Assembly: GCA_945869955.1 (NCBI GenBank) | Contig: CAMBQP010000021.1 | Coordinates: 1 to 42,297, forward strand | DNA length: 42,297 bases | Origin: Schlesneria paludicola DSM 18645 | GTDB taxonomy: Bacteria; Planctomycetota; Planctomycetia; Planctomycetales; Planctomycetaceae | Direction of reading: 5' to 3' | Shown here: positions 18,483-20,551 of the stretch, piece after piece | How the letters are laid out: each line of letters opens with the position of its first letter | Numbering within the stretch: the first letter of the stretch is position 1 | Made by a program: the position numbers and the translations under genes | Notes under the pieces: generated by a model | The model's input: the letters and a program-made list of their open reading frames with translations, nothing else | The model's database searches: none | Told to the model about the DNA's origin: nothing

Positions 18483-18746
18483 ATGATTCAAGCTTTTATC
18501 GCTCATCACGCTCTTCTGGCGAACATCCCCTTGGAATCTTCCGGGCTGTGGCATGCCCTGATCGGCACCGCCTCGTTCGGCCTGCTGGGGTTGGTGCTCA
18601 TGCTGGTAGGATTCAAGGCGTTCGAGTTCATTACGCTGCGACTCGATATCGAGAAGCAACTGGAAGAACGAAATATGGCGGTCGGAATCGTGGTGGCAGC
18701 GCTCTTACTGGGCCTGAGTCTGATTGTGGTTGTCTCAATTCTCTGA
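18483..18746 (+). CDS. DUF350 family membrane protein (YjfL-like)
   Basis: This 87-residue inner-membrane protein is of the DUF350 (PF03994) type. It has two hydrophobic helices, about residues 22-50 (FGLLGLVLMLVGFKAFEF) and 65-87 (NMAVGIVVAALLLGLSLIVV), joined by the charged segment RLDIEKQLEERN that is typical of the family. E. coli YjfL is longer, with two such modules; this copy is one module. It opens a plus-strand operon with a Gly-rich lipoprotein and a YjfC/YgiC-type ATP-grasp ligase, the same order as E. coli yjfL-yjfM-yjfC. The molecular role of DUF350 is unknown. The last 72 nt of the gene are duplicated immediately downstream. Confidence 0.9.
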   Translation: MIQAFIAHHALLANIPLESSGLWHALIGTASFGLLGLVLMLVGFKAFEFITLRLDIEKQLEERNMAVGIVVAALLLGLSLIVVVSIL

Positions 18747-18944
18747 GTGAATCCCTTTTTTGATGAAGCCTTCGTCATGAAACTCAGTTCCCAAGTCGCA
18801 TTAACGCTGATGACGGTCGGATTCGTGGTGGTAGCGCTTTTGCTGGCATGGGGTATCATGGTGGTTGCCTCAAATCTCTAAGTGAATCCCTTTTTCGATG
18901 AAGTCTTCGTCATGAAACGTAGTTCCCAAGTCGCATTAACGCTG
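18675..18944 (+). repeat. 135-bp in-frame tandem duplication spanning DUF350 end and lipoprotein start
   Basis: Copy 1 is 18675-18809 and copy 2 is 18810-18944, with an exact 135-nt period and no indels. Each copy contains the last 24 codons of a DUF350-like frame, a 30-nt spacer beginning GTGAATCCCTTTTT, and the first 11 codons of the lipoprotein (MKxSSQVALTL). The spacer plus start segment differs at 4 of 63 positions; the DUF350 part differs at 16 of 72. By my count about 85% of positions match overall. The stops at 18744 and 18879 and the ATGs at 18777 and 18912 keep the period exactly. Confidence 0.95.
18777..18881 (+). CDS. Chimeric 34-residue single-helix membrane ORF
   Basis: This ORF arose by the 135-bp duplication. 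Residues 1-11 (MKLSSQVALTL) copy the start of the downstream lipoprotein, while residues 12-34 (MTVGFVVVALLLAWG and on) copy the second transmembrane helix of the upstream DUF350 protein. The result is a lysine-positive N-terminus followed by one hydrophobic helix, ending SNL and TAA. The frame also stays open upstream to a GTG at 18747. No strong Shine-Dalgarno is visible. It may be a translated microprotein, a neutral duplication by-product, or a leader that affects the next gene. No family assignment is possible. It lies 30 nt after DUF350 and 30 nt before the lipoprotein ATG. Confidence 0.5.
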   Translation: MKLSSQVALTLMTVGFVVVALLLAWGIMVVASNL

Positions 18945-19427
18945 CTGGTCCCTTCCATGGCCGCGTTTGGTTGCTCAGAACAGCGGGCGCCCACTCCCAT
19001 GGGGATCGGTTCTGCTGTCGGTGGTGCCGGTGTTTCTCAGCTCAGTGATTCCGAGTACCTCGTTTCCGAGGATCTCGATGAATCGGGAAATCCGATCCCG
19101 TCGAGTTCCACTGACAGTTCCACGCAAACTGCTGCGACACAAAACACCCCACATTATCGCGGGCGTAGTTCGTTCATCCCGTACATTCCGTATTTCGGCG
19201 GCGGCGGCCGGGGTTGGGGAGGCGGATACCGGCCTTCAGCCCCATCCCCTCCGATGGCGCGTCCAATGGGGTCGAACTCGTCCGCACCTCGTCCGATCGG
19301 CACGCAATCTGGCGGTTCTACGGGAACTGTTCATAGCGGTTCGACCGGCACGGTCCATGGCGGTTCGACCGGAACGGTCCATGGCGGATTCGGCGGGACC
19401 GGATCCCATTTGTCCGGAGGGAGCTGA
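18912..19427 (+). CDS. Gly/Ser-rich lipoprotein, YjfM/YgiB (DUF1190)-like by position and composition
   Basis: This is a 171-residue protein. The signal MKRSSQVALTLLVPSMAAFG ends at a lipobox with the first Cys at residue 21, so it is a lipoprotein. After an acidic Ser/Asp-rich part it has RSSFIPYIPYFGGGGRGWGG (ending about residue 105), a Pro/Ser stretch, and three tandem 8-residue repeats GSTGTVHG/S (residues 135-158), then GGFGGTGSHLSGGS at the C-terminus. Its position between DUF350 and the ATP-grasp gene, and the Gly-rich tail, match YjfM/YgiB of E. coli, but I see no clean alignment, so the DUF1190 link is inference. Its stop overlaps the ligase start by one base (TGATG). It may be the acceptor of the ligase reaction. 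Confidence 0.8.
   Translation: MKRSSQVALTLLVPSMAAFGCSEQRAPTPMGIGSAVGGAGVSQLSDSEYLVSEDLDESGNPIPSSSTDSSTQTAATQNTPHYRGRSSFIPYIPYFGGGGRGWGGGYRPSAPSPPMARPMGSNSSAPRPIGTQSGGSTGTVHSGSTGTVHGGSTGTVHGGFGGTGSHLSGGS
19314..19385 (+). repeat. Three 24-bp coding repeats (GSTGTVHG/S)
   Basis: Three consecutive 24-nt units encode Gly-Ser-Thr-Gly-Thr-Val-His-Ser/Gly near the C-terminus of the lipoprotein. Copies 2 and 3 are nearly identical at DNA level (GGC against GGA at one Gly codon), while copy 1 uses different synonymous codons. This suggests copy 3 arose recently and the peptide is conserved. Each unit has one His and several hydroxyl residues. Confidence 0.9.
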
Positions 19428-20551
19428 TGCGGCGAATCCTTGCGGAACCCCGCCCCCAGTGGCGTCAGGATGTGGAAGAATTGGGATTCACTTACCATAC
19501 CATTGATGGCGAGCCTTATTGGGACGAGGCGGGCTGGTACGAATTCTCAATGTCCGAGATCGAAGAACTCGAATTGGCCACCAACAATCTGCACGAGATG
19601 TGCCTCAAAGCGGTGCAAGTCGTCATCGACGATGACCGGTTCGATGAGTTTCAGATTCCCCCGGCATTTCGGGACTGGATTCGCACCAGCTGGGATCATG
19701 ACGAACCAACCCTCTACGGGCGGTTTGACCTGGCTTGGGATGGTCGATCCGCTCCTAAAATGCTCGAATACAACGCGGACACACCGACCGGATTATTCGA
19801 GGCTGCGGTCGTCCAGTGGAATTGGCTGGAAGCGGTTCATCCCCGTTGCGACCAGTTCAACAGCATTCATGAGCGCTTGATCGCCCGATGGGCGGACTGG
19901 ATGCAGGACGACGAGACGCGTATCAGCTTTGCTGCCACGGACGGTCATGAAGAAGATTTTGGCAACGTAACCTACCTGCGGGACACTGCGACGCAAGCCG
20001 GAATCACGACCGAATACCTCCCCATGTCTGCGATTGGCTTCGACCCGCGCCACAATTCGTTCGTCAATGCAGAAAACATTCCGATCGATTGCTTGTTCAA
20101 ACTCTATCCCTGGGAATGGATGTTGCAGGAATCGTTCGCGCCGCGATTATTAACCGCCAGCACACGCTGGATCGAGCCCCCCTGGAAAATGTTGCTGTCC
20201 AATAAGGCGTTGCTGGTGGTGCTGTGGGAGATGTTCCCACACAGCGATTACCTGTTACCGACATCCTGGCAACCCCTGTCCGGCGACTACGTCCGCAAAC
20301 CGATTCTCGCGCGGGAGGGGAGCAATATTCAGGTGGTCCAGCGCGGGCGCACCGTCCGTGAAACCGATGGCCCCTACGCCAATCAGCCCGCCATTTATCA
20401 GAAATATCATCCCCTGCTGCAATCCGGGGAAAGTTTTGCGGTGCTGGGGAGTTGGATTGTGGGTGACACAGCATGTGGACTCGGGATTCGCGAAGACCTG
20501 AATCCCATCACCCATGACCTGAGTCGGTTTATCCCCCATCTGATCCGCTAG
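19427..20551 (+). CDS. ATP-grasp ligase, glutathionylspermidine-synthase-like (YjfC/YgiC type)
   Basis: This 374-residue protein matches the stand-alone ATP-grasp enzymes related to the synthetase half of GspS (PF03738); E. coli YjfC/YgiC are of similar length. Visible segments are GEPYWDEAGWYEFS, LYGRFDLAWDG, MLEYNADTPTGLFEA (nucleotide/acceptor binding), LFKLYPWEWM, LLSNKALLVVLWEMFPHS, YVRKPILAREGSNIQVV and AVLGSWIVGDTACGLGIRED. The family forms amide bonds using ATP; YjfC-like enzymes lack the GspA amidase domain, and their substrates are unknown. The start overlaps the lipoprotein stop by one base, with GGAGGG just ahead. Its direct partner is therefore most likely the lipoprotein or a polyamine/peptide linked to it. 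Confidence 0.92.
   Translation: MRRILAEPRPQWRQDVEELGFTYHTIDGEPYWDEAGWYEFSMSEIEELELATNNLHEMCLKAVQVVIDDDRFDEFQIPPAFRDWIRTSWDHDEPTLYGRFDLAWDGRSAPKMLEYNADTPTGLFEAAVVQWNWLEAVHPRCDQFNSIHERLIARWADWMQDDETRISFAATDGHEEDFGNVTYLRDTATQAGITTEYLPMSAIGFDPRHNSFVNAENIPIDCLFKLYPWEWMLQESFAPRLLTASTRWIEPPWKMLLSNKALLVVLWEMFPHSDYLLPTSWQPLSGDYVRKPILAREGSNIQVVQRGRTVRETDGPYANQPAIYQKYHPLLQSGESFAVLGSWIVGDTACGLGIREDLNPITHDLSRFIPHLIR

Follow-up and report, generated by a model that had tools for sequence, protein, structure and literature searches.

An RGGFG-type C-terminal tail beside YgiC/YjfC-type ATP-grasp ligases: a candidate enzyme-substrate pair in a planctomycete operon

What do the ATP-grasp ligases of the YgiC/YjfC type act on in the cell? 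No physiological substrate of YgiC or YjfC was named in the literature searched, despite structures and in-vitro activity. The question is raised by an operon of three plus-strand genes, flanked on both sides by minus-strand genes, in a 42,297-nt stretch of DNA (hereafter the window; contig C21 of a 6.25-Mb planctomycete assembly), which encodes a DUF350 membrane protein, a small lipoprotein and a ligase. The answer favored here, at a probability of about 0.58, is that the operon encodes an enzyme and its substrate, the ligase amidating the C-terminal carboxylate of the lipoprotein tail with a polyamine. This reading rests on four observations, namely (i) an intact ligase of the YgiC/YjfC type, (ii) a near-universal adjacent tail, (iii) strict co-occurrence of ligase and lipoprotein within the genus, and (iv) selection on the tail. 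The features concerned are the following:

18483..18746, + strand, half-size DUF350 membrane protein of 87 amino acids (aa) (PF03994, one repeat, two predicted transmembrane segments)
18912..19427, + strand, tail lipoprotein of 171 aa, candidate ligase substrate (signal peptide with lipobox AAFGC)
19380..19424, + strand, conserved C-terminal tail HGGFGGTGSHLSGGS with RGGFG-type motif, at the extreme C-terminus of the lipoprotein
19427..20551, + strand, ATP-grasp acid-amine ligase of 374 aa, YgiC/YjfC subfamily (PF03738)

The gene order, strand and tight spacing described in a first-pass annotation of the window agreed with the coordinates of the open reading frames (ORFs), the lipoprotein stop and the ligase start overlapping by 1 nt at 19427, and the E. 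coli order that it named (yjfL-yjfM-yjfC) matched the E. coli locus.

The ligase matched PF03738 at 498.6 bits over 371/371 profile positions and no amidase domain was found in it using Pfam, as expected from its initial assignment to the glutathionylspermidine-synthase ATP-grasp type without an amidase. The 374-aa ORF thus comprises the synthetase only, and a bifunctional GspSA identity was ruled out because the fused N-terminal amidase domain is missing. Among PDB entries the best matches were YgiC (7UK8, E=1e-106) and YjfC (7UK6, 1e-89), followed by trypanothione synthetase and GspSA, and the predicted model of a ligase homolog likewise retrieved these entries as its top structure matches. 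The amino acid identity to E. coli YgiC and YjfC was 45% and 42%, respectively, and the phage family PHROG 6215 (“glutathionylspermidine synthase”) was matched at E=1e-127. The catalytic motifs (R-x-D, E-x-N, the lid K/R, and R-E-D) are kept in the window ligase, and R99, D101, E114, N116, K260, K291, R296, R355, E356, and D357 were invariant across 12 diverse family members, including the catalytic positions common to GspSA in the alignment. Judged by its sequence the window ligase belongs to the YgiC/YjfC subfamily, and peptide-spermidine ligase activity may be ascribed to it by analogy. YgiC and YjfC have been reported as peptide-spermidine ligases (Pederick 2023, as cited in an excerpt of PMC12568646) and crystal structures of the group are available (7UK6-7UKA), which makes the earlier statement that no substrate is known for these families out of date.

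The conserved part of the lipoprotein is its last ~15 residues, HGGFGGTGSHLSGGS, which the first-pass annotation had merged into a “Gly-rich tail”. The lipoprotein adjoins the ligase and carries the two features by which partner proteins are defined here, a membrane anchor or lipobox at the N-terminus (in the window a lipobox) and [RHSK]GG[FY]G no more than about 45 aa from the protein end; the lipobox Cys is not universal among the partners, some of which have a plain membrane anchor. The consensus of the tail was [ST][VI][ST]RGGFG[SG][ST]G..., with Phe in 120/121 by position counts and a final residue of G, S, A or E in 119/121 tails, as in ...VHGGFGGTGSHLSGGS or ...TRGGFG...RSMGG. In all full-length relatives from other planctomycete genomes the ligase was adjoined by a small ORF with a GGFG-type tail (ends TRGGFGGTGSHLSGGS, SSHGFGSTGHSVSGGS, TSRGGFGAFGRALSGLS, VTRGGFGSSGHRFSSHS, among others). 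Both E. coli YgiB and YjfM carry a C-terminal RGG[FY]G tail, the end of YjfM being ...TVSRGGYGRSSSARGHWGG. When 55 diverse tail proteins were aligned, only the G-F-G columns of the motif were invariant. Since only 12/55 of these proteins matched DUF1190 (PF06693), the tail crosses a Pfam family border. The window lipoprotein itself had no match in Pfam (E<1), NCBIfam, PHROG or PADLOC; the profile check of the lipoprotein against DUF1190 thus came out negative (no PF06693 match at E<1), and for this reason it is not filed under that family here.

To sample loci by ligase similarity alone, 80 genome loci (Planctomycetota, Verrucomicrobiota, Acidobacteriota, Bacteroidota, several proteobacterial classes, Ignavibacteria, Sumerlaeota, Hydrogenedentota, and Chloroflexota) and 80 viral contigs were selected, and an ORF on the same strand with the motif at most 50 residues from its end was counted as a tail ORF. 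Such an ORF was located upstream in 76/80 genome loci and downstream in 1/80; one of the four genome loci without the standard tail has RGGLG instead, giving 77/80 in all. Among the viral contigs the tail ORF was upstream in 58/80 and downstream in about seven. Within 1.2 kb upstream the motif was present at 134/160 loci compared to 9/1881 other gene-like ORFs, and the strict form RGG[FYW]G at 112 loci compared to 4 background ORFs. In the window genome 41 [RHQ]GGFG sites were identified, in a search that did not cover AGR-coded Arg or Lys/Ser variants, and only the site in the lipoprotein has a tail-like end. Chance occurrence in Gly-rich proteins was therefore rejected, on both the background (9/1881) and the genome (1/41) counts. 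Phage-borne ligases with a tail-bearing partner were found in Ochrobactrum phage OC, Achromobacter phage Motura, Aeromonas phage 25, and Sinorhizobium phage Phosso, and the ligase of an Acinetobacter prophage likewise has such a partner; in phage DSS3_VP1 no tail ORF adjoins the ligase. The two phage partner proteins examined fall in PHROG 3739, where no function is assigned. An anti-phage defense module was also considered and rejected (no PADLOC match at E<=0.01), and the phage-borne ligase copies speak against a simple defense role.

A profile search within the genus of the window recovered the lipoprotein in 8/8 ligase-bearing genomes and 0/7 ligase-less ones; as the species are related, these are not 15 independent observations. 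Ligases that regularly lack the lipoprotein would have spoken against the proposed link between the two, and the neighborhood survey and this perfect co-occurrence do not refute it. The signal peptide and the tail of the lipoprotein are under purifying selection and the middle is not, as the synonymous/nonsynonymous codon differences among six congeners numbered 157/19 for the signal peptide, 103/19 for the final 16 codons, and 287/855 for the region between them. The lipoprotein contains a further element:

19315..19386, + strand, three 24-nt repeats encoding GSTGTVH[G/S], in the linker of the lipoprotein

These repeats were correctly described in the first-pass annotation, where they were proposed as an acceptor. 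They occur in none of the five congeners compared, and because they are found in the window only they were rejected as acceptor; they are a window-only linker expansion. The broader proposal that the ligase modifies the C-terminus of the lipoprotein is strengthened by the adjacency and co-occurrence of the tail, with the candidate site moved from the repeats to the RGGFG-type tail.

Several ligase copies depart from this pattern. Three loci (L082, L131, and L139) have a full-length ligase and no clear RGGFG tail in the adjacent region, which was the only region examined. A second ligase copy (L016/L057, in G009:C63) lacks about 95 residues at its N-terminus, has no tail ORF, and is probably a pseudogene. 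Six genomes (loci L014, L021, L022, L023, L024, and L028) have a ligase of a divergent PF03738 group, scoring about 55-67 bits, with a downstream protein whose GGFG end mostly reads [SA]AGGFGxxIPEPSQS.

How might the ligase and the tail work together? Enzymes of the GspS type, including GspSA and trypanothione synthetase, phosphorylate the C-terminal carboxylate of a peptide (a Gly) and then amidate it with spermidine. Asp and Glu make up 1.9% of the tail compared to 8.2% of the remaining protein, so that the C-terminus is usually the sole carboxylate of the tail, and the simplest account is consequently that the acyl group comes from the C-terminus and the amine from a polyamine. We propose that, before its membrane-targeted partner is exported, the cytosolic ligase would recognize the RGGFG-type tail of that protein, phosphorylate the C-terminal carboxylate (in the window ...LSGGS-COOH, with a terminal Ser), and join the activated carboxylate through an amide bond to spermidine or a homolog. 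This would yield a Gly/Ser-rich tether, anchored by its lipid and capped at the free end by a cationic polyamine; DUF350 would probably interact with this tether.

A number of points weigh against this proposal. The length after GGFG ranges from 7 to 42 residues, which would be unexpected for a terminus that has to reach a single pocket, and several tails end in Glu and hence have a second carboxylate. In AlphaFold2 predictions of two read-through constructs, ligase-linker-tail and tail-ligase (the latter with a paired alignment), the tail was left disordered, with a predicted local distance difference test (pLDDT) score of 24-29 compared to above 90 for the ligase, in a method that is weak for such peptides and with a C-terminus that is not free in the tail-ligase construct; this outcome is compatible with binding as well as with its absence. 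Ligation would further have to take place ahead of translocation, as the lipobox marks the tail protein for export. In two planctomycete genomes (G047 and G051) a distant DUF350 is also adjoined by a tail protein, in addition to the one next to the ligase, which could mean a function related to DUF350. Lastly, polyamine genes are common, and their presence is therefore weak evidence.

The fixed RGGFG among tails of varying length and terminal residue could also be expected of a docking motif that recruits the ligase to the membrane, the acyl substrate then being another peptide or protein or a glutathione-like small peptide; the related GspSA and trypanothione synthetase indeed use free glutathione. 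We regard this as unlikely, because the residues following the motif are constrained in the genus too and poor in Asp and Glu, and because no recurrent ligase neighbors besides the tail protein, DUF350, and a K+ channel were found across the surveyed loci. The small, fast-evolving partner with its conserved core beside an ATP-grasp enzyme furthermore resembles the precursor of a ribosomally synthesized and post-translationally modified peptide (RiPP), from which an RGGFG peptide would be released, modified by the ligase, and secreted or retained in the envelope. ATP-grasp enzymes do make RiPPs (graspetides, according to excerpts of PMC8939145), but neither a conserved protease nor an exporter gene was found beside the ligase in the surveyed loci, the partner is present as a single copy per locus and not in arrays, its membrane anchor (lipobox or transmembrane segment) is retained, and the ligase is of the GspS type in fold and sequence, so that a RiPP-like scheme appears very improbable.

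The polyamine that amidation of the tail would require could be supplied in the genomes concerned. The window genome has a standalone spermidine synthase homolog (146 bits), PF01564 matches were present in 12/12 ligase-bearing genomes checked (strong and standalone in the genus of the window, some of them weak outside it), and a gene of the deoxyhypusine/homospermidine synthase family was present in 5/5 ligase-bearing genomes checked outside the genus; a search with the nspC model TIGR01047 returned sub-threshold matches only. In Achromobacter phage Motura (L064/L237) a gene annotated as homospermidine synthase lies two genes upstream of the ligase, in a cluster that also includes the RGGFG tail protein and a full DUF350.

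The window DUF350 matched PF03994 at 46 bits (cut-off 26) and covers only positions 70-132 of 133 of the profile, i.e., half of a two-repeat protein. The 87-aa protein therefore lacks the two-repeat architecture with four transmembrane segments of E. coli YjfL, and the half-size form is found beside the ligase in congeners too. Its family assignment in the first-pass annotation is borne out by this match, and its role as an obligate partner was rejected: DUF350 was near the ligase at about 32/160 loci (about 13/80 of the genome loci) and is distant from it or missing in several genomes. In the reading favored here DUF350 is an accessory membrane protein. In G047 and G051 the distant DUF350 has an RGGFG-tailed neighbor of its own (L073, tail end 5846; L075, tail end 876), possibly a second substrate of the ligase in trans. 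The same DUF350-only loci would also fit a tail that acts as a sorting, assembly or DUF350-binding signal while the ligase makes a free peptide-polyamine sensed by the lipoprotein/DUF350 pair, as would the presence of DUF350 in both ligase-type and SpeE-type operons. We consider this quite improbable, as 77/80 genome loci of the ligase have the tail compared to about 13/80 with DUF350.

The SpeE-type operons offer a parallel to the proposed amidation of RGGFG tails. Three congeners without the ligase have an operon with DUF4178, a small ORF with one transmembrane segment ending in RSSGGFGGGGK, a half-size DUF350, a membrane-fused spermidine synthase homolog, and a flavin amine oxidase, located as follows:

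L069, 3523-9014, ligase-less parallel operon
L070 and L071, ligase-less parallel operons
L238-L267, related SpeE loci

A Gly-rich end closing in Lys was present in 18/493 sense ORFs of SpeE-type loci compared to 2/11,113 in control loci. The combination of SpeE, DUF350, and DUF4178 is already known (excerpts of PMC11237479). The Lys-ended tails suggest a second route to a polyamine-like cap, with DUF350 as a reader of such tails. A K+ channel gene with two transmembrane segments and a TVGYGD filter was near 8/160 ligase loci (PF07885 in L162, 5128-5481), and in phage DSS3_VP1 a K+-channel-like gene lies directly 5' of the ligase (L065, 1502-2488). Polyamines block K+ channels, and a tail acting as a tethered blocker is therefore conceivable. 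A wider scheme, which we put forward tentatively and with some doubt, would have two chemistries that share DUF350 and make membrane-tethered polyamine-capped tails, the ligase by amidation of RGGFG tails and a SpeE-like enzyme by aminopropylation of the C-terminal Lys of ...GGFGGGGK, the capped tail acting on a membrane partner (DUF350 or the nearby K+ channel), for instance as a cationic plug held on a tether.

The ligase family, its structures, its in-vitro activity, and the operon context are already known. The E. coli systems YgiB-YgiC and YjfL-YjfM-YjfC share with the window the ligase subfamily, the gene order, and a membrane-anchored partner with an RGG[FY]G tail, and the yjf operon also the DUF350 neighbor; the window partner differs from YgiB and YjfM in lacking the DUF1190 core, and the window operon from the yjf operon in the half-size DUF350 and in having no yjfI/J/K (DUF2170, PspA, YjfK). 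E. coli GspSA and trypanothione synthetase (PF03738) share the ATP-grasp synthetase fold and the catalytic residues, whereas the window ligase has no amidase domain and is only about 25% identical to them; we know of no tail protein for either enzyme. The loci of PHROG 6215 phage ligases have a similar ligase and a tail protein and differ in being phage-borne. Among PspA and CesT/Tir operons with polyamine genes one class consists of an ATP-grasp ligase, DUF350, and a DUF1190 lipoprotein, and a second of a transmembrane-fused spermidine synthase, DUF350, DUF4178, and a novel lipoprotein (Ravi et al., 2024, PMC11237479, as excerpted); the window operon, in contrast, is without PspA and CesT/Tir genes. 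The excerpts of that paper do not mention a shared C-terminal tail, the lipoprotein as a substrate, or a Lys-ended tail. A description of the C-terminal tail was not found in the literature searched, and parts of the proposal may already be present in Pederick 2023, Sui 2012, and Iyer 2009. So far as this literature shows, the novelty lies in a C-terminal signature that nearly all partners share and that cuts across protein families, and in reading the pair as enzyme and substrate. The signature accompanies the ligase at about 95% of genome loci, and in E. coli and many phages too, and thereby singles out YgiB and YjfM as candidate substrates and the tail as a specific candidate site. If the proposal holds, envelope proteins would be modified with polyamines at their C-termini across many bacterial phyla and phages.

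Two observations concern the build of the partner and of the locus. A proteobacterial tail protein (L099, 4674-4997) has a two-Cys element predicted with confidence by AlphaFold at about residues 27-69, which is missing from the window lipoprotein. The junction between the DUF350 and lipoprotein genes is bridged by a duplication that the first-pass annotation did not mention:

18675..18944, + strand, 135-nt tandem duplication from the 3' end of DUF350 to the 5' end of the lipoprotein gene (Tandem Repeats Finder)
18778..18881, + strand, 34-aa hybrid ORF arising from the duplication (read from the sequence)

The two copies (18675-18809 and 18810-18944; period 135, 2.0 copies) are in-frame and 85% identical, and the duplication was not found in the four congeners examined. 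The hybrid ORF, which had no Pfam match over the cut-off, fuses the start of the lipoprotein signal peptide to the last transmembrane segment of DUF350.

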